From: Gautieria morchelliformis
Lineage: Eukaryota > Basidiomycota > Agaricomycetes > Gomphales > Gomphaceae
NCBI GenBank assembly: GCA_015179125.1
Contig: WHVA01000225.1
Location: forward strand, 1-64,000
Length of the DNA: 64,000 nt
Direction of reading: 5' to 3'
The notes under the pieces were generated by a model. The model saw nothing but the letters and a program-made list of their open reading frames with translations, was not told the DNA's origin and made no database searches. The position numbers were made by a program, and so were the translations under genes. Every line of letters begins with the position of its first letter. Position 1 is the first letter of the stretch. This document shows positions 13,813 to 63,482 of this stretch, one piece after another.

Positions 13813-16067
13813 TCAATGTCCTAGTAAGTCGTCATGAGGAATAGAGTATGGCGTGTGATATGATGCCTTCAACTGGGCGATGATAACCCGGTTACATTGC
13901 ATTATCATCTCGTCTAGAAAAAAATTAAATCTAATGCATTCATTAGCTACTGCTTGCATGGACAACAACAGTGAATGACCTATCCTGACGCATGAGGCAG
14001 GTGATAGCATGGTATCCCCCAAACCAGAGATTGACTTGTTCGGCAGCTGATGAATTAAATGTCCACCGATTTGTCATTTCATCCAGGAGCTCAGGCCACC
14101 GTGCAGGGTTGCAGTATCGACCGCAGAATGCATCTGACTCCTTAAGCTTGCATTTGTAATGAAACATGTCCACGGGCATCGCTACGTTTTCAAAGTATGT
14201 GTCATTATCTTGGACTAGCATAGCGGCCATATGACAATTATTGTCGTACCACATGACCGACGGCAGGGACTGTTTGGTGGTAAATAAAGTCTTCCAGAAA
14301 CCCTGGGTAATTATTAGAAGTTCCTTAATACACTAGTGAAGCTAAGACCTACACGGACACTGTTTGGCCCTTCCGCCCCATAGAACGTCGCTCGTCCTAA
14401 GATCACACCACATGAAGCTACGCAAAGCTGCTCATTGTGGGTTCGATGGCATCCAAATCTGGAAAACACCTTCCGGAGCCCTGCATCAGGCTTGTCGTCA
14501 CATGGGTTGATGATCTCGCCATCCGCATCTATGAGAATCTCATCAGGTGACAATTCCCTGTCCTGCACCTGTGGCGCCGCATCGGCATCTGCTGCATGAA
14601 GGGCTTCTATACCCATGGACTTATTTGTCTTTGCCATACATTCCTTCAGTTGAAAGATAGCCTTTCCTTGTTCAAGAAAGTGCGCTTCTGCTGCGCAATG
14701 TGTTGCAATCGAACATGTTCGAAAGGATTCCTCTGCTGGATGCTGCATGCATCGACAGCACATTTGTTCTTATGGCTCATGTGCAGGGAGCAATATCGAT
14801 CCTTATTACTCTCGAGTTCCTCCTTGCAATCATGGATGCCACAGCAAGGGTGGCCAAGGCTGACGCCGTCGGTTACAACCGATCTCATAGCTCCGGTAAT
14901 GTTTCCATCTGCGTCCTTGATGTGCTTCACACAGAGGTTACATGCATGATTCTATGCAGGCTGTCCGGTACCTGCCATGGTGAGGTTTCGAGCCGTGATG
15001 GCGGCATGCCATCATGCAGACTGAGAGGGTGCTTTGTGGGGAACTTGCAGTGACATCTTGTGCTCGCTGTGCCATGTAAGGAGCGCGTGGATGGTGAACG
15101 CTTCGCCAACGAGCTCATAGTTGATGTTGAAAGAAATGGGCCAATCTGGGGGTAGTGCTACAGCCGATGGTAGCGAAGCGGATTCCTCGTTGTATATTCG
15201 TGCACAGTTCAATGATGAAGTCCTGTGATAAATAAGCACAATAATACTGCAGATGAGTGTGGAGATGCGTACCAAGCCATGGCCATCTGCACCGTGAAAC
15301 GCTCACAAAGATCCCGTTCAACAAAGAAGTGCGGTGCTACTTGGATTGCACATACTGTTGCCGATAGGTCTTCATGCTCATAATTGTAGTATGCTCTTAT
15401 ATTGCCTTGAACGAAGCAGTCGGGATGGTAGCGAGTGTTGCAACCTAGTGAGGGCAAAAGATGATAAACTTAGAAGACTTGCCAGTACATATCCTATCCC
15501 TCACCTCGGCAGTACGTGGAGGTCACATTCACAGGAACTGGACCGAACGATTTGGTAAAGCAGGTAGCTTGATGTGTGTTTACCTCATGAAGTTCTGGCG
15601 GCTTTCCTGAAAGCCGCTGATATGAACTATTGGGGCAATGCAGCCTAATACACGTTCGAACCGGAGGTAGGAACTCATGGATAGCTGTTAAAGTAAGATA
15701 AAGTCACAGTAATGTAGGTGAGTAATTCATATGCACTTACAGACATGTACCAGCGTGCTGTGCCTCAGGAAGAGGGTTAAAAATGAACCCCAATTCCAAG
15801 GAGCAATATCGGGATGGTTCCACGCAATTTCTCTGAGTGCTGTCAGAGACGAGCAGTATAGTCATCTATATCGAGAGCGAGCTGCAGAAGGTCATGCAAC
15901 GACCTTGGAAGGCCATCCCGAGTGGCCTCCTGAGTCAACACCTGCGTGAACCCAATCCTTGGTTTCAGGTGGCGTAGAAGGGCAATGTACATCGTTATCT
16001 TATCAATCGCTAGGGATTCCAGCTGGGGATAGAGCCTGCAAGCATTCATGATATCAGTGAGTGACAT
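13813..16067 (-). pseudogene. KDZ (Kyakuja-Dileera-Zisupton) transposase with CxC5/CxC6 clusters, inactivated
   Basis: On the minus strand from MSLTDIMNACRLYPQ at 16067 the exons follow the known KDZ order. An N-terminal helical part comes first, then a Cys cluster GCNTRYHPDCF with APHFFVERDLCERF. The second cluster follows as VVTDGVSLGHPCCGIHDC, RYCSLHMSHKNKCAVDAC. The catalytic region gives RTHNEQLCVASCGVILGRAT, WYDNNCHMAAMLVQD, ESDAFCGRYCNPARWPEL, RWTFNSSAAEQVNLWFGGYH and NFFLDEMI. The DNN and the Cys/His residues are preserved. In-frame stops sit at 15012-15014 (TGA) and 14952-14954 (TAG). Frame breaks occur near 14700-14760 and 13980-14010. It is therefore a dead copy of a cut-and-paste transposase. 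Confidence 0.88.
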
Positions 16068-31588: not shown

Positions 31589-33954
31589 ATGCGCGTCCTT
31601 CCACGCTGTGCTCGCAAACAGACCGTTATATCTTTGCGAAGTTACTCTTCCAATGCGCCCAGGCCAGATCGAATCAACAGATATAGTCGTACGGTGACCG
31701 AGCCGAAAGCCCAAGGTGCTAGCCAGGTCAGCATCAACGAGTTACTGTAATTGTGGCCTGTAAATAGCTTTCTCAAAAGAAGTTTAGGCTATGCTATGGG
31801 CCACTGATGGCATAAATCAAGACTCTGATCTTAACAAGGCGATGGTTGGTGTAGGGAGCGTATGGTGAGCAACCTGGCCCATCATATTTCTCGACAGTCG
31901 GTGCGCTAACTAGCGGTCAGGTATGAGGGCAACCCGTAGGTTATTATTCTCTCACCGAAATAGCGACATAACCGTTATATACGATTAGATGCAATGGCCA
32001 CTTACTTGGCCTAGGTGCTCTTGTGAAAAAATCCATTGCTTCAACGGAAGCTATTGTTCCATACCAATTTGGCACTGTCGGCGTATCCGACGGAATATCC
32101 ATGGGAACATTCGGGATGTCATACTCACTCCAATCTCGGGACCTTATTGCAGACCAAATAGAGACTGCCGCGGGAGGCCATTGGCTGGACGGAATGGTTG
32201 TTATCCCAGGATGTGATAAAAACATGCCTGGAGTATTGATGGGATGCGAGTAACTTCCTGCATTTAATTGTTAAGTAATCACTGAAATTTTGCCTTAGTG
32301 GGACGCCTCAACCGTCCTGGACTGATGGTGTACGGAGGGACGATTCGCCCCGGCTCGTGCGCGGGTGCGCCACAGCTGGACGTAGTCTCAGCCTTCCAGG
32401 CATATGGTAAATATCTCCAGGACGGGAAGACTGCTATGGCCGAAGAAGAGCGATACAACACCATTAGACATGCATGCCCAGGTCCCGGTGCTTGTGGAGG
32501 AGTGGGTTGTTGAACTTCCTCAATCACTACGTCTGATTTGTAACCATTTCCAGATGTACACCGCTAATACCATGGCCTCCGCGGCGGAAGTCCTCGGCAT
32601 GACTCTTCCAGGCTCTTCGTCATTTCCAGCAGAGTCAGAAGAGAAGTTACAGGAATGCAGATCAGTCGGGCCTGCGATCTTGAATCTCTTACAAAAAAAT
32701 ATCCTTCCGCGTGACATTATGACCCGTACCGCGTTTGAAAATGCCCTAGTGACTATCTCTCCTATCATACAGATGAATAACGGAATCTCACTTACTCGCA
32801 CCATCGCATTCATAGGTTCTTACCATGGTCCTTGGTGGATCTACAAATGCAGTTTTACATCTTATCGCTATGGCTCATTCAGTTGGCATCCGGCTCACCC
32901 TCGAAGAGATTCAGGCTGTGTCAGATCGAACCCCATTCCTCGCGGATCTCAAGCCCAGCGGAAAATATGTGATGGAGGACGTGCATATTTTGGGTGGGAT
33001 TCCCAGTAAGTTTCAAGCTACACAATCAGCTCCCCCTTTGATCCGGAGACAATGGCTAGAAATTCTGGCTTACCTTCTCAAGCACGACCGCATCAATGGC
33101 AATACCATGACTGTTACAGGGCGTACGCTTGGAGAAAACCTAGAACAATGGACTGCAAAGTATGGCGAACTTACCGATACCCAGGATGTTATCCGGCCTC
33201 TCGACAAGCCTCTTAAGAAAACAGGCCATATTAGGTACGTTGTTAACGGCAACATATAAACCGGACATACAGGTATATTTTTGAACAGAATTCTTCGTGG
33301 CAATCTGGCCCCAGGAGGCGCAGTTTCAAAAATCACTGGAAAAGAGGGGCTTACGTTCACGGGAAAGGCACGTACTTTCGATTCTGAAGATGACATGGTA
33401 CGTGCTGTAGAAAACGGAGAATTGAAAAAGGGTGAGAAGACTGTAGTAGTCTTGCGATACCTCGGTCCCAAAGGTGGTCCTGGTACGATACAACACCGTT
33501 TTCATGTTTGCGAATTGACCGTGAGTTCAGGAATGCCTGAGATGCTGAAGCCCACTAGTCTGATCATGGGGGCCGGACTTGGGAAGGATGTCGCCTGCCT
33601 CACGGATGGTCGCTTCAGCGGTGGGTGCGTGTTCCCAACAACAGGATTTCTTTTCCTCCTTCACAAAGTCATGTTATTAGATCACACGGATTCGTGGTCG
33701 GGCACGTCGTTCCCGAAGCACAGGAGGGTGGACCGATCGCCCTCGTCAAGGACGGTGACACAATCCATATCGATGCTGAGGCGAATACCATCGATGTCGA
33801 CGTGCCGCAAGCAGAACTTGAGGAACGTCGAAGAATGTGGGCACCACACCCTCTCAAAGTCACACAGGGCACATTGTACAAATACGCGAAAGTCGTCGAG
33901 GATGCCAGTCATGGGTGTGTTACTGATGCAGGCGGCGAAATTATCCATCAGTAA
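31589..33954 (+). CDS. ILV3: Dihydroxy-acid dehydratase, mitochondrial
   Basis: Eleven exons join in frame to 603 residues: 31589-31726, 31788-31864, 31921-31935, 31989-32245, 32299-32501, 32554-32748, 32816-33005, 33060-33234, 33289-33482, 33531-33624, 33681-33954. The enzyme is an Fe-S dehydratase for the third step of valine/isoleucine synthesis. The Arg/Ser-rich start [20 protein letters not shown] suits mitochondrial import. Motifs in order are [26 protein letters not shown] (cluster Cys; family usually CNxHLLDL), [50 protein letters not shown]-like [21 protein letters not shown] (catalytic Ser) and [10 protein letters not shown]. Exon 3 is only 15 bases (WYEGNP), and intron 4 (32246-32298) fits only as a GC-AG intron. 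Fungi carry paralogues, so this may be one of those and not the main enzyme. Confidence 0.95.
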
Positions 33955-40119: not shown

Positions 40120-41552
40120 CTAGGGATTGACCTTGTCGAATCTCTTTTGTTTGGAACCAGATGGACCATCGTCTTCAAGAGAACTCGAAACATACCGCCT
40201 CCTTGATCGAGGACGTGATGTTCCTTCGTTGTCTCCCTCCTGGGTGGGAAACTCCAAAGTCTTTGATTCAGCTGATGATTCGCCACGATGCACGAGGCTC
40301 ACCGTCTGCGAAGAATAACCTGATACTGATGAGAGCATTTGTGAGTATTCCCCCGCTAACGAGTGCGCATGCGGATAATTTTGCGAGGTTCGCCGAGGTG
40401 GCTGAGATTCAGCAGGTGGCAGATGATTGTCCTTGTCGTATCTCCTTCGTCTGGAACTAGACGGACCATCGTCTTCAGGAGAACTCGAAACATGCGGCCG
40501 CCGGGATCGGGGACGTGATGTTCCTTCGTTCTCTCCCTCCTGAGTAGGAAACTCCAAAGTCTTTGATTCAGCCGATGATTCGCCACAATGCACGAGGCTC
40601 ACCGTCTGCGAAGAATAAGCTGGTGCTGATGAGGGAGTTTGTGAGTATTCCCCCGCTAACAAATACGCATGCGGATAATTTTGCGAGGTCGGCCGAGGTG
40701 GCTGAGATTCAGCGAGTGCCAGATAGGATCGGTATTGCCTGCGCTGTGGTGGTCCCATAGACTGCTGTTGCGAAGATAGTTGACCATCAAGAAATCCATA
40801 CTCCCTACTTATCCCACTGTTATATCCGCCACTTGGTATAAGTCCGGTGTCAGGTCTGGTCGATGCGGTGCATGTTTGACCCAGAGGAAAATTATACTCT
40901 GGTATCTGAGGTCGCGGTAATGGCGTCGGTGCGTGATACGGCAACGATGGTACATCTCGAGAAGTAGAACTTGAAGAGGGAAGGCCAACGAAGGTTGGTG
41001 TTGACGTAGCCGCCTCGGGTCCCTGGCCTTGTTCTCGCCGTCGTACCCGCGACTCTCGTATGATAAGACCCTTATTTTTGCGTCCAGGTCCACGACGGCG
41101 CACACCATCCTGGTAGCGGCAAATTTTTGCTCGCTGAGAACAATTGTGGCACGTGGGTCTACACCCGTCACATTTGAGTTTACGCCCTAGAAGTAAGGGG
41201 GAGGGGTAAGTCCCTGTTTGACGTCCGCCATAGGCCAGGTGCGCGTAGTATCGAATATGGTCGATAAAACCAGACATTTACCTCTACAAAAGTCGCAGGC
41301 CACCTCTGTTTTCTTGGACACCTTGTTCCTCCGTGGCCTTTTCCTATCACTATCGTCGTTACCCCTCCGGTCTCGATCGTCATTACCTCCTCCGTCTCCA
41401 CCGCCATCACCCTTTTCGCCGCTGCCGTATTCACCCTGCCAGGTGTCGTCGTTTCCCTCCTTACCTTCTCGGTCTCCTCCACTATTTTGTGGAATATCAC
41501 GATCTTCATCCCCCTCGGGGTACTTGGAATATGGCGGAGGGTTGATATTCAT
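40120..41552 (-). CDS. Zn2Cys6 transcription factor with a 100-residue internal duplication
   Basis: Two exons (41282-41552, 40120-41186) give 445 residues. The start MNINPPPYSKYPEGDED (41552) was chosen because it precedes the acidic/Gly-rich head directly. The binuclear zinc cluster spans the intron: CDFCRGRKLKCDGCRPTC then HNCSQRAKIC, with the usual C2-C6-C6-C2-C6 spacing, followed by a basic linker RRRGPGRKNK. The rest is Ser/Pro/Gln-rich. Two successive copies of about 100 residues (from AESQPPRPTSQNYPHA and from AESQPPRRTSQNYPHA) make up the C-terminus. The fungal-specific regulatory domain is not visible, so it is a short DNA-binding protein with unknown targets. It is divergent from the 42046 gene. 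Confidence 0.85.
40140..40740. repeat. Two tandem 300-bp units inside the zinc-cluster gene
   Basis: The word gatgttccttcgtt recurs at 40217 and 40517, exactly 300 bases apart. Flanking sequence matches along the whole unit with scattered substitutions, preserving frame. Confidence 0.9.
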
Positions 41553-50918: not shown

Positions 50919-52476
50919 TTATATCATCCCTGGTCGCGCGAAACGGTACGGGGCAACACGATCTCCTGCATCACGGCCACTCTTCAACTTGAAGTCCGAA
51001 TTGGTACCGGCATTCGAAAGCCGGCGTCGTGATCCCTCCTGTGGAAAGCTTGCAATGACATGCTCCGCGCCAGGATCCTTCACGCTACTCAAGTCTTTAG
51101 CCACGTACGTGTCCTCTTCCTCTAATTCCATGTCATGCGTGGAGCTTTCCATGTCATGCGCCTTGGGGCTTTCCATGTCCGAAGAAACCCAGTTGAACGC
51201 TATACGTGGGGGAACTGGCTTAGACCGACCTAACCACGCTCGCCAGATGTCGGGCTGTGTGCCAAGAATAAGAGAAAGCGCTGTCCCGACGGATGCGGCG
51301 AAAAGGTCCGGAAATGGGCTCTTGGGCGCAACGATCGATGTCACCGACAGGCTACAGGAAGAAGGCATGAGTGCGTGTTACACTAAATCAGTCGCACGGA
51401 GAAAACGGACACGAGGGATAAGAAGACGTATACACCAAACACACCAACACGGGCTAGAAAATGCATGTCAAGGGTGCCAGCTTGTCGTAAATCACGCCAG
51501 TTCCTGCGAAGGAACACACTGATGGCCACTGCACACAAAAAGTCGTAAGCAAAGAATTAATAACGCACAATGAACGCACCCGCAAATCCCAAGGCTGTAA
51601 GGAGTGAAAGGGCGGAGAAAACCGCATATACGTTGGAACTGTGGCGTCTCAACGATAAGCAGGACGAAAAGAAAGAACCCCTGATAGGACGCACATGGGG
51701 CTTTCGAACGAGCAATAGAAAAAGCGTCGCGCCCGGTTGACGGTTTCTGGTGTCTTGACAGCGAGAAAAGCCGCACTCGTTGCGAAAGAAAAGAATGTAA
51801 CATAGGGTGCAATCAGAAGCTGGATGAAGCATATATGCACTCATTAATGATGGTATACTAGAGAGGTCTATGACAAAGTACGAACGGCGTAGGTGCGCAT
51901 TATATGTGCCTGGGCCTTTGGGTCGCGAATACTTTGGTTCACCTAGGGGATTCGGCATGTGAACCATGGGGTCTATCAAGAAGCATACCTGGAACATGAG
52001 TGCCAATACAGCCACTGAATTCCTGCGATGCATCCGGTGATTAAGATGGGTGTATAAAAGGACAACAAAAGCTAACATTGGTAGTACACCGTCCAGCAGG
52101 CTTGCTTGTGACACACAAAGCATCTTCGGAGGTTCAGGTCCAACGTGTTTCCCTGCATACCACCTACTCCCGTCTTGGTGAGACACAAGAAAGGGAGGTC
52201 TGGTTATTATACTCACAAGAGAGAAGAGACGATGCCAGTAATAACCCACGTCATGCACATATTGACAAGAATCGGATGTCGCTTGACGGTGGTCGACAAT
52301 AAAAAGGTAGCAATAAGTATTGGAAGAAGAATCTGGTCGACCAGCTGAAACGCCAGAAAAAGGTACAACAGCCCAATAGAGCTTGTCCCCACCGTCGAGG
52401 TAGACGTAGCTCGCCGAGCTATGTCACCTGACAACGAATAAATAAAGGCTGAAACAGGTCCATCCATGGAGGTCAC
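50919..52476 (-). CDS. Multi-pass membrane protein of an agaricomycete seven-helix family
   Basis: A multi-exon minus-strand gene starts MTSMDGPVSAFIYSLSGDIA. Hydrophobic helices are seen in IGLLYLFLAFQLVDQILLPI, LPILIATFLLSTTVKRHPIL, MCMTWVITGIVSSLL, LCVSQASLLDGVLPMLAFVV and SIPSLMSAYMLHPASD. Further helices lie in YVTFFSFATSAAFLAVKTPE and in ALSLLTALGFAGAFIV. The C-terminal exon (51368-50919) adds the last helix (LFAASVGTALSLILG) and a cytosolic tail rich in Met, Glu and Ser ending FARPGMI. The layout is that of the orphan seven-helix proteins expanded in mushrooms, often described as GPCR-like. Ligand and signalling role are unknown. Confidence 0.75.
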
Positions 52477-52809
52477 TGAGAGGAGGCGGAAGGGAACGAC
52501 TTGCGTTGACGCCTTTACAGGTAGTCAGGAGCAAAGATGATGAAACCAGGACTCAACGAAGGTGAGATACACGATAATACTTCGCCAGGTACTAATACAA
52601 CATTGAGAATGCCGATCGACGGCCGATCAATTGCATCAAAGCACAATCAAGCAGTCTCCATCATCTCCATCATGATAAGTACTAGTACGTACACGTATAT
52701 TACTTACCCTGTGATATACAGTATTAGGTAATATCAATGTCCATGTAAAGCTCTATTAACTATCCCGTGACACTCAGGAAAGCACCTGGAACAGGCCATC
52801 AATGGTATA
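52477..52809. promoter_or_regulatory. Upstream region of the seven-helix gene
   Basis: 333 bases between two minus-strand genes. No gene recognised. It should hold the promoter of the membrane protein gene and the syntaxin 3' untranslated region. Confidence 0.4.
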
Positions 52810-53973
52810 TCATCTTCGAAAACGAATAGCTCTCACCGCCAAGAGTACGATGCAGATCACAATGACCAGAACTATCATCAGGCACGCCGCTCGCCGGCCT
52901 GCTTTGCGCTGATACTCGTGGGCCGTAGTTAACTCTGAGGCTGCGGCACTCGTGTCCACCGCTACAGACGTGATATTCGACTCAATGTTGTCTGAATATT
53001 TGTTAGGGGGCTGGTTTACAATGGCGGAGAGAAACGCACCCAACATCCCGCCCTGCTCACTTACAAGCGTTCCAAGGTCTCGGAAGATCTCCGACAACTC
53101 GTGGATGCCCGTCTCGATCTCTCGGATTTCTGCCTCACGCTCATGTATGAGGGATTCTTGGTGAGAAAGTTCGGCTGGTGAAAGTTGGCTAACCATTGTG
53201 CCTCAGCGAAGAGTAGTGATGGGTATCCGACAAACTTACGACTGGAACATTTGCGCCTGCCGCTGTCCTGGGGAAGCAACAGCCGCTTGCTCTCTGATTT
53301 GCAATGACTCAGTACACCTAATTACCAGCAGGTGTCAACAAGGCAGACCTTGCTTCATCCTCCTCCACCGCAATCTTGGCACCTTCAACGACCGCGCGTT
53401 GGCGCTCCGCACTGATCTGCTGCGCCCGCTGGAACGCGACGAGGGAAAGCTGAAAGTCATGAGAGGTCTTCTGAAGTGGAGTTTTCTGATGAGGCTGAAT
53501 AGACGACGCAGGTGTAAATAATAGGAGATCTGCTGCAGACAAAGACGCATACTAGCTCCGACTGAAGGGAAGCGAGTTTCTTAAGATCGTCGGTCCCCCG
53601 CTTCGCCATATCACGGGTAGTCTCGGTAAGATCATGCCTACAAATATGCAAGGTCGATTAGCCCTTCCCCGAGGTACCTGAGTCACGGTCAACCCTCACA
53701 ATCCCTTGCGCACGACTCCAGTGTCCCTCCCAGTTCCCAGCTGCAATCATTCAAGGTGAAAACATTAACATCCTTGTAAGACACGGAAAGAAGCACGAGA
53801 AGACGTACCTGATCCACAAGCTTCAACATGCCCTGCACGTTTGAGTTGATCTTAAAAACTTGCAAGCTGAGGCTTGACTGTAGTTGGAGAAAAGATGCAT
53901 CTTGAGGAGACTGCGGTGCCCCCAAGGGCGTTGCTCGTGAGGGCTTCCCAGCTTCGAGGTCTTGGAATGACAT
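52810..53973 (-). CDS. Qa-SNARE of the syntaxin 7/12 (Pep12/Vam3) type
   Basis: A multi-exon gene starting MSFQDLEAGKPSRATPLGAP and ending in a membrane anchor. Such SNAREs drive fusion at endosomes and the vacuole. The Habc part is visible as SLSLQVFKINSNVQGMLKLV, RDMAKRGTDDLKKLASLQ and RKTSHDFQLSLVAFQRAQQI. The SNARE motif runs LIHEREAEIREIETGIHELS, EIFRDLGTLVSEQGGML then DNIESNITSV once the intron at about 52994-53042 is removed. The zero-layer Gln falls in VSEQG. The C-terminal helix is RAACLMIVLVIVICIVLLAV with a short basic end RAIRFRR. It is divergent from NAS2 with a 107-bp gap. Confidence 0.92.
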
Positions 53974-54080
53974 GAGCGTATGCCGAACACTAGCTACAGG
54001 CTACGGCCCACCCACAAGTGACCATATGGCAAACGTCACTCTAAATTCGAAACTCAGACTAATCATAGCACATAGTCACC
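53974..54080. promoter_or_regulatory. 107-bp divergent promoter of the syntaxin gene and NAS2
   Basis: The start codons are 107 bp apart, so the core promoter must be shared or overlapping. No clear motif was recognised. Confidence 0.6.
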
Positions 54081-54892
54081 ATGGGATTCACACTTCCACC
54101 ACCGCCCATGGAAGTTGCTCGATCACTCATGGCGCACAAGGATACCATTCAAGCAGATCTCGATGGCCAGTTTGCTATTCTCTCCGCTAATGATTCTACC
54201 CTGCATACACCACTCGTGGATCCTCAAGGCTTCCCTCGAGCTGACATCGATGTATATGCCGTTCGACATGCTCGCGTTCGCATAATAGAGTTGAAGAATG
54301 ATATGGAATCGGTAATGAATGATTTGGCGAAGGCGCTAGAGGGGGTGTACGATCCACGGAACGGCGGCAACGTTACAGGGAATTTGCTGGATAGCAGTAT
54401 TGAACCCACTGGTAATGCCTCTGATGCTGGAAATGTATTTGCCAGGGTGGATGGTGTAGCACCAGGAAGTCCCGCTGCTCAAGCTGTCTGTTTTTTTTTT
54501 GTCCCATGTCCATGCAAGGACTTATGTTGAGCGTCTAGGGCTTGCTGCGTGAAGACCTCATCTTGCAATTTGGAGCTCTCACCTCGACCTCACTTTCAAC
54601 GCAGTCTCTTCAGCCAATTGCAGAACTGGTGTCATCGCATGAGAACGTGAGTTGAACAGTGGCATGACTACTGGATGGTTACCCACAGCTCCTACTATGG
54701 CTATGCTTTCTTAGCAAACCCTGACTGTCGTTGTCCTTCGCAAAGATTCCCCAAAACGGACACTTTCTCTCACTCCGCGGAAAGGCTGGGGAGGTCGGGG
54801 ACTATTGGGGTTTGTGTTGTTATTCATTTCCCGATTTTGCATTTATATCGTCTTCGATCAGATGCCACATTGTCCCATTCATCCAATCATGA
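54081..54892 (+). CDS. NAS2: 26S proteasome assembly chaperone Nas2 (PSMD9/p27)
   Basis: Four exons (54081-54485, 54539-54646, 54715-54809, 54862-54892) join in frame to 212 residues. Nas2 binds Rpt5 during assembly of the proteasome base. The N-terminal helical domain includes LMAHKDTIQADLDGQFAIL, LVDPQGFPRADIDVYAVRHA and RVRIIELKNDMESVMNDLAK. The C-terminal PDZ-like domain includes FARVDGVAPGSPAAQAGLLR, EDLILQFG and LSLTPRKGWGGRGLLGCHIV. The last exon of 31 bases completes the conserved GLLGCHIVP end. It is needed, because reading through the intron would give an unrelated tail. A piece of this 3' end recurs inverted at 58590-58665. Confidence 0.93.
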
Positions 54893-55343
54893 CAATACGG
54901 CAGTTTAAGTGGCGTTTGCCATCCGGACTAAATGCTCGACAAATCAAGCTTTGACTCCCGAATTAATTGCCAGCTAACGTCGTTCGCCGTCGCCGGTCCC
55001 TAAGCTTCATAATCATCGAAATTGCCTACTTTTTACGCCTATCCATCGAGTACGGCGACACCTGGACGCTTAGAAAACCTAGATCCTGCCTCGTTTGACA
55101 GTGTGGCATTCAAGCTAATTTCAGTATCCATTGACTATGCAGGTGATTTCGACGCTAGTGGCGATACTTTTTCAAGGTAACATTATCTGTAGTCTGATGT
55201 ATATAAACATGATGCAGTCCGATGGATAAGGTGATGTAGTCCGATGGATATAAACATGTAGTCCGATGGATATAAACCTGATGTAGTCCGATGGTATAAA
55301 TATGATGAATGGGCATAAGAATGGATGGGTATCGATGAAGACA
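54893..55343. other. Spacer downstream of NAS2 with a short minisatellite
   Basis: No gene. The right part (55190-55305) is a tandem array with unit about 25-27 bases, core agtccgatggatataaac, present in about four copies of varying length. Confidence 0.7.
55190..55305. repeat. Minisatellite with gtagtccgatgg core
   Basis: The core agtccgatgga occurs at about 55216, 55239, 55261 and 55288, each with a tataaac-like tail. Unit lengths are unequal. Confidence 0.8.
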
Positions 55344-57937
55344 TCAAACGTTTAAACTCCATAAATCACCCTTGAGAAACTCAAGGGTCAACGACTGAAA
55401 CCCCGACCCAGATGGTGTTACAGGCGAGTACCCTGACGTGGTCGTATCTGTCATGGGCCAAAGAGTGATCAGAAGACCGCCACCGCTCGCCTCGCCGACA
55501 CTTCGAGTATCAGTTGAGGTGTCATCTCGGTTGCCACCAATATGTTCGATGACCTGGCTGCGTCCCGGCTGTTCGAACGGCTCGTCCTGAGCAGTATCGT
55601 CTAGCATCTGGTTCAACATGTCCGTTTGTTCTTCGGAAAACTCGTCAATATCCGTCTCAAAGATGGCAAGTCTCGCGGACAGGCTGCTCAGACGGGTCTC
55701 TCTTGAGAATTCAGGGAGTGGAGCAACCGCGACCTCCTGCTGGTTGGAGGAACTCCAAAAATCACCCTTGAGGAAGTCAAGACTCAACGACTGAACCTCC
55801 GACCCAGATGGTATTATGAGCGAATACCCTGACGTGGTCGTATCTGTCATGGACGAAAAGCGAGAGATCAGGAGACCGTCATCGTTCGCCTCACCAACAC
55901 TTGGAGTATCAGTTGAGTCGTCATCTCGGTTGCCACCAATATGTTCGATGACCTGGCTGCGTCCCGGCTGTTCGAACGGCTCGTCCTGAGCAGTATCGTC
56001 TAGCATCTGGTTCAACATGTCCGTTTGTTCTTCGGAAAACTCATCAATATCCGTCTCAAAGATGGCAAGTCTCGCGGACAGGCTGCTCAGACGGATCTCT
56101 CTTGAGAATTCAGGGAGTGGAGCAACCGCGACCTCCTGCTGGTTGGAGGAACTCCAAAAATTGCCCTTCAGGAAGTCAAGACTCAACGACTGAACCTCCG
56201 ACCCAGATGGTATTATGAGCGAATACCCTGACGTGGTAGTATCTGTCATGGCCGAAAAGCGAGAGATCAGGAGACCGTCATCGTTCGCCTCACCAACACT
56301 TGGAGTATCGGTTGAGTCGTCATCTCGGTTGCCACCAATATGTTCGATGACCTGGCTGCGTCCCGGCTGTTCGAACGGCTCGTCCTGAGCAGTATCGTCT
56401 AGCATCTGGTTCAACATGTCCGTTTGTTCTTCGGAAAACTCATCAATATCCGTCTCCAAGATGGCAAGTCTCGCGGACAGGCTCAGACGGATCTCTCTTG
56501 AGAATTCAGGGAGTGAAGCAACCGCGACCTCCTGCTGGTGGGAGGAACTCCAAAAATTGCCCTTCAGGAAGTCAAGACTCAACGACTGAACCTCCGACCC
56601 AGATGGTGTTACGAGCGAATACCCTGACGTGGTCGTATCTGTCATGGTCGAAAGGCGAGAGATCAGGAGACCGTCATCGTTCGCCTCACCAACACTTGGA
56701 GTATCGGTTGAGTCGCCATCTCGGTTGCCACCAATATGTTCGATGACCTGGCTGCGTCCCGGCTGTTCGAGCGCCTTGTCCTGAGCAGTATCGTCTAGCT
56801 TCGTGTCGCTTGGTTCTTGCAAAAACTCGTCAACATGCGGCTCAAGAATGGCAGGTCCCGCGGACAGGCTGCTTAGACCGATCTCACTTGATAGTTCAGG
56901 GAGTAGAGCAACCGCGACCTCCTGCTGGTTGCAGGAAATTTCCTCGCACGCCTCCACTTCTTCATCGGTGAAACTTTGCACGAGGCTACCGAGAAGATCA
57001 GCGATGTCACCGACGACATATGCCCCACGAAGGTATAGTTCAGGGGATAGAGCAGCCGCGACCTCCTGCTGGTTGCAGGAAATTTCCTCGCACGCCTCCA
57101 CTTCTTCATCGGTGAAACTTTGCACGAGGCTAGCGAGAAGATCAGCGATGTCACCCACTACATACGCCCCACGAAGGTATAGTTCAGGGGATAGAGCAGC
57201 CGCGACCTCCTGCTGGTTGCAGGAGATTTCCTCGCACTCCTCCACTTCGTCGTCGGTGAAACTTTGCACGAGACTACCGAGAAGATCAGCGATATCACCG
57301 ACTACATATGCCCCACGAAGGTATACGTCGTCTGCATCCTCTAAGTCCGTGCTTTCCGCATCGCACGGCTGGTGCAGCTCACAATCGATATCTGTCAAAA
57401 TATAATTGGGCCTACACTCATCGCCTGAAATATGATGACGAGCTCACCATCTGCGAGACTCACCGCACACGCCCAGGCGGTTATCTGGGCTTGTTTGTCG
57501 CGGCTCACGAATCGAGGGGTGCTCATAACGTCCGGCGGATAAATAGGGGGCTCCTCCACTGCAGCCGCCTCTACGCCAGCATTACTGGGAATCTCGCCCA
57601 TGTCCGCGCAAAGCCCCTCTAGGAGTCGTGCTATATCACCGATGGCTATCGCACCTTGGAGGTATAGGTCGCGCGGGGTGCTCATGACGTCCGACGGATA
57701 AATAGGGGGATCCTCCACTGCAGCCGCCTCTACGCCAGCATTACTGGGAATCTCACCCATGTCCGCGCAAAGCCCCTCTAGGAGTCGTGCTATCTCACTG
57801 ATGGCTATCGCACCTTGGAGGTATAGGTCGCGCGAATGTTCCGTCTCAAGTGCGGTGACGGCCTTGTGCGACTGGGGGTATGTCTCGAATTCAGAACCGT
57901 CTAGAGCAGAAGCTGGGATATTCTGAGAATGGATCAT
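55344..57937 (-). CDS. Protein made of three classes of tandem repeats, function unknown
   Basis: The first exon (57937 to about 57453) starts MIHSQNIPASALDGSEFETY and carries two 53-residue repeats (DLYLQGAIAIGDIARLLEGL, then CADMGEIPSNAGVEAAAVE). An intron with donor GTGAGC at the ADG codons joins it to the long second exon ending at 55344. That exon has three 48-residue repeats (LYLRGAYVVGDIADLLASLV, QSFTDEEVEACEEIS). Four repeats of 132-133 residues follow (LDDTAQDEPFEQPGRSQVIE, SVGEANDDGLLISRFS, TDTTTSGYSLIIPSGSEV, LSARLAIFETDIDEFSEEQT). The 53- and 48-residue units share the pattern L-YL-GA-GDIA-LL. About 840 residues, very acidic, with no signal peptide, membrane helix or Cys pairs. 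The long units are nearly identical at DNA level, implying recent homogenisation. No family recognised. Confidence 0.7.
55531..56870 (-). repeat. Tandem array of 396-399-bp units within the repeat gene
   Basis: The word ttgccaccaatatgttcgat begins at 55531, 55930, 56329 and 56725, giving periods of 399, 399 and 396 bases, all multiples of three. Neighbouring units differ by only a few percent by eye. Confidence 0.95.
56930..57330 (-). repeat. Three tandem 144-bp units within the repeat gene
   Basis: The word aggtatagttcaggg occurs at 57031 and 57175, exactly 144 bases apart, with a third unit ending at about 57320. This is the 48-residue protein repeat. Confidence 0.92.
57516..57830 (-). repeat. 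Two tandem 159-bp units in the first exon
   Basis: ggggtgctca recurs at 57516 and 57675, 159 bases apart, matching the 53-residue protein repeat. Confidence 0.92.
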
Positions 57938-58589
57938 AAGTAATAGCTAAGTGCGGTATAAGGTGGAAAGGACGTATAAAACCGTGGAACGTTCCAGTCG
58001 TTCTCTGGGTAGTATGTGGACAAAAGCAAGAAGTATGAGATAGGTCCAGGCGATCCCAAGACGTTATAAAGGTCGTTTTAACCCTATCTTGGGACAGACA
58101 TCCGAAAGTGTCACATAGCGGCAAGAGTGAGACAATCTCACGGGACACAAACTGGCTAGCTTTGCAGCAGATAAGTATGAGAGCAATTCCCCTGCTTCAC
58201 CGTTGAAGGAGAGGAACATGCTCTCATATTTATCTGGCAAAGCCAAGTTGTGTCCACAGCCATGTGGAGAACCGACTTCTGCAACTAACACGTGATTCTA
58301 CCAATCATGGAGCCACGTGATAGTACGCAATACGGTGGCGCCTCGGCTGCAGTCGTACACGCACCCTCCGCATCTAGCGCCAGAGCGCCCACAGTTCGAG
58401 GTAGTTAGTTCCCTATCTTAGATACTGTACAGCAGCGGAGACCACCGGGGAACTCAGATTAGCCTTAGCTTTGTTCTTCCTACTAGACTGCGCGTTCGCG
58501 TTCTCTATACTATTTAGACACGATCTACGCTTGTCTCGCTTCTTCCTGGCACACTCCGTGTCCACAATGGCAAAGTATCGTGTCGCCGC
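57938..58589. promoter_or_regulatory. Upstream region of the repeat gene
   Basis: Non-coding. Bases 58030-58345 recur with about 90 percent identity at 59787-60100, so this is the promoter-side part of a segmental duplication. Confidence 0.6.
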
Positions 58590-58665
58590 CACTTAAACTG
58601 CCGCATTGTCATGATGGGGATGAATGGAATGGGACAATGTGACCATATAAATGCAAAATCGGGAA
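58590..58665 (-). repeat. Inverted copy of the NAS2 3' end
   Basis: The reverse complement reads cccgattttgcatttatat, then cattgtcccattc and catgacaatgcggcagttta. This matches 54832-54910, which covers NAS2's last intron, last exon and downstream bases, with small indels. Confidence 0.88.
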
Positions 58666-58724
58666 ATGCCACCAACATGTTCGATGACCTGGCTGCGTCC
58701 CGGCTGTTCGAACGGCTCGTCCTG

Positions 58725-58853
58725 AGCAGTATCGTCTAGCATTTGCTTCAACATATCGGATCGTTCTTGCGAAAATTCATCAATATCCCGGATATTGATG
58801 AATTTTCGCAAGAACAATCCGACATGTTGAAGCAAATGCTAGACGATACTGCT
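58725..58853. repeat. Near-perfect palindrome, 64-bp arms, 1-base centre
   Basis: Arms 58725-58788 and 58790-58853 are inverted copies with two mismatches and a single base between them. The arm is coding sequence of the long repeat (DIDEFSQEQSDMLKQMLDD). Confidence 0.95.
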
Positions 58854-59712
58854 GTCTCAAAGATGGCAAGTCTCGCGGACAGGCTGCTCAGACGGATCTC
58901 CCTTGAGAGTTCAGGGAGTGGAGCAACCGCGACCTCCTGCTGGTTGGAGGAACTCCAAAAATTACCCTTGAGAAGACTCAACGACTGAACCTCCGACCCA
59001 GCCGGTGTTACGAGCGAATACCCTGACGTGGTCGTGTCTGTCATGGTCGAAAAGCAAGAGATCAGAAGACCGCCATCGTTCGCCTCACCAACACTTGGAG
59101 TATCAGTTGAGTCGCCATCTCGGTTGCCACCAATATGTTCGATGACCTGGCTGCGTCCCGGCTGTTCGAGCGCGTTGTCCTGAGCAGTATCGTCTAGCTT
59201 CGTGTCGCTTCGTTCTTGCAAAAAATCGTCAACATCCGTCTCAAGAATGGCAGGTCCCGCGGACAGGCTGCTTAGACGGATCTCCCTTGAGAGTTCAGGG
59301 AGTAGAGCAACCGCGACCTCCTGCTGGCTGAAGGAAATTTCCTCGCACTCCTCCACTTCTTCGTCGGTGAAACTTTGCACGAGGCTAGCGAGAAGATAAG
59401 CGATGTCACCGACTACATATGCCCCACGAAGGTATATGGCGTCTGCATCCCCCAAGTCCGTGCTTTCCGCATCGCACGGCTGGTGCAGGTCACAGTCGAT
59501 ATCTGTCAAAATATAATTAGGCTGACACTCATCGCCTGAAATATGATGCCGAGCTCACCATTTGCGAGACTCACAGCACACGCCCAGGCGGTTATCTGGG
59601 CCTGTTTGTCGCGGCTCAGGAATCGAGGGGTGCCCATAACGTCCGACGGATAAATAGGAGGCTCCTCCACTGCAGCCGCCTCTACGCCAGCATTCCCAGT
59701 AAGCCCCTCTAG

Positions 59713-59767
59713 GAGTCGTGCTATCTCACCGACAGGCGCGATGGCTGTCGGTGAGATAGCACGACTC
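59713..59767. repeat. Short palindrome in the first-exon remnant
   Basis: Arms of about 23 bp (59713-59735 and 59745-59767) with a 9-base spacer. The arm encodes the GDIARLLE segment of the 53-residue repeat. Confidence 0.9.
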
Positions 59768-60110
59768 TTGGAGGTATAGGTCGCGCAGGCGATCCCAAGA
59801 CATTATAAAGGTCGTTTTAACCCTATCTTGGGACAGACATCCGAAAGTGTCACATAGCGGCAAGAGTGAGACAATCTCACGGGACACAAATTTGCTAGCT
59901 TTGCAGCAGATAAATATGAGAGCATGTTCCCCTGCTTCACCGTTGACGGAGGCGAACATGCTCCCATATTTATCTGGCAAAATTAAGTTGTGTCCCGTGA
60001 GGCAACTCACCGCCCACTCTGCAACTAACACGTGATTCTACCAAGGCTTATGGAGCCACGTGATACCGCGCAATACGGTGTCGCCTCGCCTGCCGTCGTA
60101 CCCGACGGCA

Positions 60111-60427
60111 ATCGCCGGATCTTCATAGCTGACCAAGCAAGGCCAAAGAATCGGTCACTCAGCCGATCAAACTCTGGGGTTGTGCTTACCCAGTTCGCTG
60201 AGAACACTCAGCCATGACTGCCACCTATTTACGTAGTGCGCGCCGCTGCTTCGCGGACTCAATGTTACGGCAAGCTCATTCTTACTTCAGCCTTTTCCCC
60301 AAAGGTCAACAACGTACCACCACTTCCTGCACCTCAATACCGCGCACCTCAAGAGCATTGGGCCTCAGTGAGAGGGTTATGGCTCTCTTTTTGTCGGGCA
60401 TATTCTAACTAATGTCCGGTGGTTAGT
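60111..60427. promoter_or_regulatory. Upstream region of SUR2 with a small ORF
   Basis: A 64-codon plus-strand frame at 60214-60408 (MTATYLRSARRCFADSMLRQ, then HSYFSLFPKG) looks like a mitochondrial presequence. It has no identifiable continuation and ends 20 bases before the SUR2 start. It is either an upstream ORF of the SUR2 leader or chance. Confidence 0.4.
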
Positions 60428-61506
60428 ATGACATCTACTCTGAACCACCATTTTAATGTTTCCAGCGACATTTGGACTTCGGACACCTTTCCGTGGTATC
60501 ATATCCCTCGGACGTCTCTCATTCCAGGCATTCCCGACCACATAACTCTGCTCGCGACACCTGCGGTCGTTTATTGGACCGTGTCCCTCGTCTTTCATCT
60601 GTTGGACGTATCAGGTTGGGACTGGCTGGAGCAATACCGCGTGCAACCGTCAGCCGAAATCCTCAAGAAGAATCTTGCAACCAAGGGACAGGTTGTTGCA
60701 GCTGTTATGAAGATACAGGTGATGCAAGTGGTTGCCGGACTGCTATGGACATACTTCGTTGGCCAGGACTCGAGTGTCCAGAATCATGCCGCAGAGTTAC
60801 AAGCGCTGAGCGAGGTTATTGTGCGTTGGTCTATCAGGATAGTTGGAAGGGACCAGTCAGTGCAAATCCTGGCTAAGCATGGTCCCATGCTCACCTATTA
60901 TGCATATTGGTGGGCTGTTCCACTCATCCAGCTGGCGTCCGCAATGTAAGTTCTCTGTCGTCAGAGGAGTCATGCAGCTGCACATATGATATCGTATAGG
61001 TTTTTCCTTGACACCTACCAATATTTCGTTCATCGTGCCCTTCACGAGGTTCCTTTCCTCTACAAGCATCTACATTCCGTGCACCACCGCCTTTACGTTC
61101 CATATGCGTATGGCAGTCAATTTAATCACCCATTCGAGGGTGCCATTGTTGACGGACTCAGCGTTGCGCTCGCCGCCGCATTTGGAAGACTATCTGATCG
61201 ACAGGCAGTTCTGCTTTTCTCAATAGCCACCTACAAGGGAGTCGAAGATCATTGTGGATATCAGTTTCCGTGGCATCCACTTCGCTTCCTCTCCAGTAAT
61301 GACACGGAATTCCATGAAATCCACCATCAGGTGACATTGATTCCATCAAAAGTTTAATTCACATCTAACACGTATATGGGCAGATCGCTGGATTAAAGTC
61401 GAATTTTTCACAGCCATTGTTTACATTCTGGGATCGTGCCCTAGGAACTTACATGACCATGGAGCAACTGGAAGCCAAGAAAGGCAGGAAGACGAAAATG
61501 CTTTAG
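60428..61506 (+). CDS. SUR2: Sphinganine C4-hydroxylase
   Basis: Three exons (60428-60945, 61000-61330, 61384-61506) join in frame to 323 residues. The ER enzyme hydroxylates dihydrosphingosine to phytosphingosine in ceramide synthesis. Early residues WYHIPRTSLIPGIPDHI match the family. Membrane helices include LLATPAVVYWTVSLVFHLLD and TYYAYWWAVPLIQLASAMFF. The diiron histidine boxes are complete: FVHRALHEVPFLYKHLHSVH with HRLYVPYAYGSQFNHPFEG, and DTEFHEIHHQ. The C-terminus LEAKKGRKTKML is basic and may serve ER retention. All His residues of the HxxxH, HxxHH and HxxHH set are present. Confidence 0.94.
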
Positions 61507-63482
61507 CACGGCTTACAAACACTCACACCTATGCGCTGCTCTCATCATCTTTTTCATCTCATATATTTATTACGACTCCCTTCTATCTCCCCGGTTAACG
61601 CTGGATCCTTCCGTACTAACATGGATCATTTCCCGGGCAATTGTGTCCGTTGTATCGGTCTATACCCTGCTTGCTTATGTTCACTAACAACTTTGATACG
61701 TCGGTGACTGGCGACATCAAAAATACTAATAGGGTCTATTTTGAATGGTCTTGGCTTTCGGGGGATTTTTTTTGTTACTCGGTGAACTTGTCTCATGACT
61801 AGATCGGGAAACAAGATTTGCTTACTGGACGGTCAAACTTGAGGCAAGCTGTGCAAGTTCCAAACTAGAGGCCACCTCAGCCCAGTATCGGTGGCGCCTC
61901 CGGCGGAAAATGTTGCGCTTGAACCTGGCTTGCGCCACTTCAACTCGTGTTCTCGATGTTGCGCAGCCTCTCAGGGTGCCTATAGACGCGCACCTATGCC
62001 TGGAACAAACGTTCTCCCAAACCGGCTTCGCCTCGCCCCCACCGTTCTATAATTACTATAATTAACCTGGCTGCCCCAAAAATCAGAGAATCGAGCCCGC
62101 TGCGCGAGACCGTCTCCGGACTAGACTCGGCTGACTCGGAGACTCTCGCAGCCAAACAGTGATCCTCGATCCACCGTCTACTGACAGCATGACACCCTCA
62201 ACGCGTCCACGACTTAAACCCATCCCGGTTCCTGTCTCCCAAAAATTGTTTAATATATATATATTAGAACACATCTAAACATTACCCGCGTGCCTGGGAA
62301 CCATGTTGTCGCCTTCGCCCGGTGTGCGACGGCGGGGTCTGGTACTGTCCCCTAATGCATATATCGGGGTGATACGCTACGCCGCATGCACGTGCATTAA
62401 GTCTTTTGCGGATGAGGTTCCTGTAACGTGTTCCTCAGTGGCCACATGCCGATGTACTGCCTCTACTAGTCGCACAGCCATCCAGCTATCTATATATATC
62501 CCCCGCTTAGCTGTAGGAAAGTACCTTGCGAATTATACGGTAAGTGTGATAAGTACTGCACAGCTAGGTTTTCATGATTTGATAACTGTAACGGCATTCG
62601 CGAACTGCTCTGATCCTCTCTCTGATATCTGATAAGTTGATAACTGGATTCAGAGTGAAAATCGATTATTGAAACTTACAGGAGAGTACTTGACGTATGT
62701 GTTGCGGGTGACGAGTGCACACGACATTTTCTATCGTATAATATTCATCAAATCTGCTTGTGTGCGTCGCCCGGCCTGTAGTACACTTATAACCTCATGG
62801 GAGATGGTCGAAACGGTATGAAATGTGCGTTATATATACGTGACGTTGTGTACATCCTGCTGTTTTGGAAGATGCACCCTAATCGGTTACTAATTTATAC
62901 GGATAACTCCGACATCTCCCTGGAGTGGAGCAACGCTTTGTATCTTCGCCGCGATTCTTATAGGTACCGACGTACAAAATGTGCTGTTTTCCCACGTCGA
63001 GGGTACCAGTTAATTTCAAGGCCACCCCTAGTCATGATCTGTCAGCATTGGACGTCTGGACGCCCTCTCCCCCCCTCTCTTCTTTTTCTTAGGCTGTGTG
63101 CACAAATACGGTGTTCATCTATGGGGACACCTTGACGCCTAACGCTCGCTGTAACGTACCTAGCTGTCTGTACTCTGGGCCTATTCTCTGCTCCGAGTCG
63201 GTCTCGGGTGGGCGTGCGCTAGAACGTTTTCAATGAAACTTGAAGCCAGGGCCCTAACACCATCATGTCAGTCTATGTGCCAAGTTCGTACGAATTTAAC
63301 CGGGCGTTATAAACTAATCGGGTTGCATTTTCGGTAGCTTCGGTCCCAGAGTCTGCAGAGAATCGAGTCCGCTGCGCGAGACCGTCTCCCGGAGACTCAC
63401 GGGTCTCCCCGAGTCCCTCAGAGACTGTCTCGCGCAGCGGACGCTATGTCCTCCAGAGTCTGACAGCCGCCCACCTTTTTCT
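61507..63482. other. Gene-poor stretch with a dispersed foldback repeat
   Basis: No gene recognised in almost 2 kb. The word agagaatcgagcccgctgcg starts at 62085 and recurs (one change) at 63357. A T-run lies near 61765 and a (ta)n run near 62252. Small open frames at 62303-62632 and 62797-63135 show no family features. Confidence 0.4.
62085..63442. repeat. Possible 1.36-kb MITE-like unit bounded by a shared terminus
   Basis: The word gtccgctgcgcgagaccgtc (63367 on) is present directly at 62085-62119 and 63357-63389 and inverted at 63421-63442 (gtctcgcgcagcggac). Thus 62085 and 63442 form an inverted pair, and 63367-63442 is itself a hairpin with 22-bp arms. No target duplication was found. 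Confidence 0.55.

Follow-up and report, generated by a model that had tools for sequence, protein, structure and literature searches.

What kind of gene is the repeat-rich open frame at positions 55344–57937 of the minus strand of a 64,000-nt stretch of Gautieria morchelliformis DNA (contig WHVA01000225.1; the stretch as a whole is called the window here), and how did it come to consist so largely of tandem copies? A preliminary description had seen in it a minus-strand gene with a single intron, encoding an acidic protein built entirely from three classes of tandem repeats. The reading favored in this work, to which a probability of about 0.5 is assigned, is that this gene (denoted here as gene A) is a fast-evolving orphan, in which an ancestor of ~300 residues was lengthened by three in-frame tandem duplications, and that its product is an acidic helix-and-linker protein for which a scaffold role can be proposed.

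Architecture of Gene A

The region 55344–57937 (stop codon included) is an open frame with a single intron, whose predicted translation is a protein of 845 residues (91.2 kDa, pI 4.05, net charge −124) containing 8 lysines. Exon 1 (57448–57937, minus strand) would start with the ATG at 57937, and exon 2 (minus strand) spans 55344–57391. The best placement of the intron is 57447..57392 on the minus strand (56 nt, GTGAGC...TTTTGACAG); alternative in-frame splice choices are present, and the one chosen has a standard donor and a standard acceptor. Both splice sites are identical in a neighboring copy of the gene, paralogue B. The proposal of a minus-strand gene with one intron was borne out.

Tandem Repeats Finder (TRF) identified three arrays within this gene, with periods of 159 nt (2.0 copies, 57516–57834), 144 nt (3.0 copies, 56891–57325) and 399 nt (4.0 copies, 55355–56937). 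Each of these periods is divisible by three, a coincidence expected by chance once in 27 cases. When read from the frame, the arrays correspond to two units of 53 residues (57674–57832 and 57515–57673), three of 48 residues (57183–57326, 57039–57182 and 56895–57038) and four long units of 130, 132, 133 and 133 residues (56541–56930, 56145–56540, 55746–56144 and 55347–55745, respectively), all on the minus strand, the last one reaching the C-terminus. TRF and the frame therefore agreed with the three classes proposed, with the long units measuring 130–133 residues. The notion of a protein built entirely from repeats holds for the arrays, but not for ~35 N-terminal, ~22 pre-intron and ~22 post-intron residues, which are unrepeated. 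Counting a single copy of each unit leaves ~300 residues.

The relationships between the units were evaluated by comparison with shuffled sequences. The core YLxGA..xGDIAxLL, common to the 53- and 48-residue units, gave a local score of 57 (null 21.8 ± 4.3), which none of 2000 shuffles equaled, and the suggestion that both short classes derive from one ancestor was upheld. By contrast, the 53-residue unit and the long unit matched each other no better than shuffled sequences did (692 of 2000 were as good), and so it was for the head of the 48-residue unit and the tail of the long unit (894 of 2000). A link that was absent from the preliminary description is that the long unit opens with 12 residues that form the tail of the 48-residue unit (42–43 bp shared, 83–88% identical): the two arrays overlap, and the last 12 residues of the third 48-residue unit double as the head of long unit 1. 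It follows that the long array originated in a duplication starting inside the last 48-residue unit.

The long units had been described as almost identical in DNA. In plain nucleotide alignments this was true of units 2 and 3 (9 of 396 nt differ), but not of units 1 and 4 (56 of 387 nt), with units 3 and 4 differing at 30 of 396 nt. The inner units are therefore the closest and the edge units have diverged, as would be the pattern of an array with exchange among its inner units, and this lends support to the recent exchange that had been postulated. Long unit 1 differs by 34 nt from each of units 2 and 3, and its nearest counterpart is the initial long unit of paralogue B (19 of 384 nt differ), which suggests that the first long-unit duplication predates the duplication that gave rise to genes A and B; gene conversion could mimic this pattern. 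A further clue came from the internal joins, which at each array were compared with its 5′ and 3′ edges. By eye, the sequence shared between unit joins and array edges amounts to ~1 bp for the 53-residue, 3 bp for the 48-residue and 2 bp for the long units, indicating that the duplications were not seeded by long homology. Microhomology-mediated or replication-based duplication would be the natural reading of such joins.

These observations can be integrated in a model in which an ancestor of ~300 residues, a length deduced from the present units, would have undergone three tandem duplications of distinct segments (53, 48 and ~132 codons), each of them initiated where homology was all but absent. 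Unequal exchange would later have spread or homogenized the long array at least, and selection would have retained the in-frame products. The resulting protein would display five amphipathic helices, carrying the YLxGA..xGDIAxLL core and separated by linkers, and after these, four acidic segments that are rich in Ser/Thr and largely disordered. Each helix might act as a docking site, and the number of copies would tune avidity.

Evidence for a Coding Function

The alternative that survives best is that the region consists of repetitive DNA, or of a gene that died recently, and makes no functional protein; it would be open because its periods happen to be multiples of three and because an open unit was copied. 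This explanation is considered possible, albeit doubtful. Five non-overlapping unit pairs, hand-picked from 24, contain 53 differences in 409 codons, and these were confronted with a null in which the counts of transitions and transversions were kept equal. The differences were distributed as 15, 9 and 29 over codon positions 1, 2 and 3. The 29 changes at the third position exceeded the null mean of 17.7 (P 0.0008), and 22 of the 53 were synonymous, for a null mean of 13.6 (P 0.0065). In addition, frame-blind nucleotide alignments revealed internal indels between units of 21, 9, 6, 3 and 3 nt, and a further length difference of 3 nt exists at the C-terminal edge; the 5′ flank common to A and B, which is a small control, shows two internal gaps, of 1 and 3 nt. 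Finally, an open frame across ~300 unique codons has a chance of ~3e-6 in one given frame, as calculated from the base composition. The excess of third-position and synonymous changes, the indels in threes and this open frame argue against dead DNA, and the differences and indels provide moderate support for a coding gene and, equally moderate, for the earlier claim that the frame is under selection.

Other observations weigh on the opposite side. Pairwise dN/dS between units ranged from 0.16 to 1.11 over the 24 pairs, with small counts, so that any constraint is loose, and the absence of stop-making changes among the 53 differences was not significant (P 0.17). The array of 48-residue units is open on the plus strand as well (206 residues from stop to stop), which makes openness alone a weak proof at that point. 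Furthermore, paralogue B is disrupted and the locus is rich in rearrangements. Taking both sets of data together, the coding nature of gene A is moderately supported, not proven.

How common open arrays are was assessed in a sample of 294 kb in 24 records, comprising the window, 30 kb adjoining it and 20 stretches of 10 kb; the sample is not random, as these stretches come from contigs picked for carrying an LTR-like repeat that is described below. TRF produced 21 rows with a period of at least 60 nt. Seven of them have a period of at least 140 nt: the four from the window are all multiples of three and fully open, and the remaining three, two of which overlap each other, are neither. The 14 rows with periods of 60–139 nt all lie outside the window, and six of these are fully open. 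Therefore, open arrays are not rare in the sample, a point in favor of dead DNA as far as the shorter periods are concerned.

Two further arrays deserve mention in their own right. One, with a 104-bp unit repeated ~10 times, lies past the right end of the window (L043 3813–4809); 949 of its 997 bases are open, although a period of 104 is not divisible by three. The other, within the window, is an in-frame repeat of two 300-bp copies (89% identical, 40125–40724) in a second open frame (40120–41277, minus strand), which yielded no Pfam match and whose Cys-rich start resembles a Zn2Cys6 cluster; this array supplies one of the four window rows just mentioned.

Search for Relatives and the Genomic Surroundings

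The preliminary description had recognized no family for this protein, and the search for relatives led to the same result. With exon 2 as query, six families were listed in Pfam-A, none of them above its curated cut-off; the best was NBP1 (E 0.00048, 20.2 bits for a cut-off of 25.8), of which no stretch passes alone. Exon 1 yielded two Pfam-A families, both below the cut-off, and paralogue B none. The ten families listed in NCBIfam were all far under their cut-offs. Among the 23 PHROGs listed, whole-protein E-values went down to 1.8e-6 with no stretch passing, and these were read as scores summed over repeats. A PDB sequence search with exon 2 gave no match at E up to 5. Neither TPR, ankyrin, LRR or WD40 repeats (most matches above ~0.1 being filtered out) nor HET, NACHT or NB-ARC domains were listed by Pfam at E up to 1. 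When an alignment of the 48-residue and long units was used as query, viral contigs and prokaryote genomes returned 183 and 123 pattern matches, respectively, and none was confirmed. In the literature consulted, no report of the protein was found, nor were the letters of the core motif. In the 122-Mb genome of the fungus itself, the matches to gene A are confined to this locus (9 of 9 and 3 of 3 protein matches). A match to a transposon protein, which had been named among the results that would speak against the original view, appeared neither in the genome nor in the Pfam searches: this copy number and the lack of any transposase- or gag-type domain in Pfam led to the rejection of a transposon protein as a candidate. 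Gene A may thus be regarded, with due reserve, as an orphan, in the sense of having no relative in the collections searched, among which its own genome was the sole fungal one.

The locus is flanked on one side by a gene with a Nas2 N-terminal domain (54069–54530) and on the other by one with a fatty-acid hydroxylase domain (60.4–61.4 kb), which we take to be Sur2-like; the domains found by Pfam among the neighbors are Nas2_N, FA_hydroxylase and SNARE. In the single assembly considered, the Nas2 flank was found a single time, as was the complete Sur2-like flank, which also gave partial matches of 66–73%, and no second haplotype was seen with flank and dehydratase-region queries. With regard to this dehydratase region, 121 nt of it (~33000–33120, plus strand) are repeated in inverted orientation at positions 3–124 of the window (minus strand), with 87% identity. 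Short tandem repeats (55188–55308, TRF) are located 3′ of the stop codon of gene A.

A dispersed repeat with at least 26 further matches outside this locus of the contig is represented between genes B and A by a 212-bp fragment (58355–58566, minus strand). Five pairs of these matches are 6.8–7.4 kb apart and three are 12.8–18.6 kb apart, spacings that earned the repeat the name LTR-like. The outer end of the fragment begins TGTGGACA, and its other end is cut a few bases from the edge of the A/B homology.

The presence of this fragment bears on a second alternative, which is considered quite improbable: that gene A is the cargo or the relic of a mobile element, represented by the segment 54825–58668. 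Inverted repeats of 82–90 bp do bound this segment (54825–54914, plus strand, 3′ of gene A, and its inverted partner at 58587–58668; 81% identical), facing inward and having the same outer end, and the LTR-like fragment lies inside. However, the inverted repeat found no match elsewhere in the genome, and an inverted-repeat element is disfavored precisely because its ends match nowhere else. Moreover, no target-site duplication was seen by eye, gene A lacks any transposase-like family and paralogue B lies outside the segment. Elsewhere in the window, ORFs at 13943–14769 (minus strand) gave no Pfam match but resemble remnants of a KDZ-type transposase.

Predicted Product and Its Possible Role

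The AlphaFold models are of low quality (mean pLDDT 36.7 and 42.8), which makes the assignment of helices weak. In these models the short units contain helices and most of the long-unit tail has none, and the 12 highest hydrophobic moments listed all fall on the five core helices. No stretch of the N-terminus is hydrophobic (the highest mean over 19 residues is −0.25), and the maximum hydropathy overall, 1.18, is not that of a membrane-like segment. The surface location that had been suggested is thus disfavored, a verdict drawn from hydropathy only, with no dedicated predictor. The product is accordingly predicted to be an acidic, mostly disordered and non-secreted protein with five amphipathic helices. 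It might conceivably act as a multivalent binding scaffold, with docking helices repeated along a backbone that is acidic and disordered.

The weakest alternative, the original suggestion of a protein that diversifies rapidly and serves in self-recognition or surface interaction, is very unlikely: near-identical internal repeats are common in proteins of this sort, but gene A encodes neither an N-terminal hydrophobic stretch nor a membrane-like segment, no NLR, HET or adhesin family was listed by Pfam, and amino-acid change between units is not in excess, with no sign of diversifying selection in pairwise dN/dS (24 unit pairs, small counts).

Fungal adhesin-type genes carry in-frame internal repeats, as gene A does, with probable exchange between units. 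Unlike adhesins, the product of gene A is strongly acidic and, by hydropathy, has no signal-like or membrane-like segment, and on hydropathy a secreted or surface adhesin is disfavored as a candidate. PMC6023273 deals with such repeat-bearing fungal genes, adhesins among them. Gene A, having no recognizable family or relative found, also resembles the lineage-specific (orphan) genes of fungi such as Neurospora (PMC10684091); it differs in holding three dissimilar tandem arrays inside one gene. An orphan gene with intragenic repeats is thus of a known kind, and gene growth by internal duplication is likewise known. The unusual part is the cluster of scars resembling template switches that accompanies it.

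Paralogue B and Its Palindromes

These scars were found in a damaged tandem paralogue adjacent to gene A, which was absent from the preliminary description. Paralogue B (~58587–60104, minus strand) comprises a 5′ flank, a remnant of a 53-residue unit, an intron (59503–59558, minus strand; 56 nt, splice sites as in gene A), one 48-residue unit and one complete plus one partial long unit, with its frames broken. It retains ~320 nt of the 5′ flank, identical to A at 274 of 314 aligned positions, and its 48-residue unit and complete long unit are identical to A at 466 of 492; by eye, its exon 1 lacks the N-terminus of A. Paralogue B is probably a pseudogene.

Two palindromes break its coding regions: a perfect one in exon 1 (59713–59767, 23-bp arms, 9-nt loop) and one of 129 bp in the second long unit (58725–58853), with 124 of the 129 positions (96%) self-complementary. 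As judged by eye, the right arm of each runs in the same direction as the matching sequence of gene A, and the left one is its inverted copy. The 5′ flank of A (58143–58255) holds a third palindrome, an imperfect one, which has its counterpart in B (59876–60001), where it is more perfect (folding z of −11.3, vs. −7.1 in A). The mark of template switching, one arm that is new relative to paralogue A, was found in B, and its changes look like the result of such events: two new palindromes and a third with one arm apparently homogenized. By eye, with A as reference and no outgroup, the new arm is on the same upstream side in all three events, as expected from one replication direction. In the 294-kb sample there are three perfect palindromes (arms of at least 16 bp, loops up to 12 nt), and two of them are in B.

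A precedent exists in yeast coding DNA, where, according to what PMC8604942 reports on this point, template-switch mutations at inverted repeats alter genes through arm homogenization and spacer inversion, with up to five neighboring replacements. The events in B are like those so reported in that one arm of an inverted repeat was copied from the other and a coding block was changed, and unlike them in that the inverted duplications are longer and the paralogue was broken.

The hairpin-forming palindrome upstream of both A and B might act as a fork barrier or give rise to small RNAs; in Rfam, no RNA family was found at the gathering threshold in 52000–62000. A tentative scenario would be that this pre-existing hairpin was a fork trouble spot, at which repeated template switching wrecked B and, through microhomology-mediated tandem duplication, built the arrays of A. 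If so, one fragile locus would preserve both outcomes, the dead copy B and the enlarged protein A, and a copy that failed, adjoining one that seemingly succeeded, could show template switching becoming protein innovation. The nearly homology-free joins beside fold-back scars make this mechanism testable among strains of one species; the importance of the protein itself is conditional on demonstrated expression.

The last 104 nt of the common 5′ flank (58048–58151) contain one A/B difference, a divergence below that of the exons, which either a conserved promoter or gene conversion might explain. The longest perfect palindrome of the sample, with 56-bp arms, lies outside B, on another contig (L022 6173–6291, contig C138).
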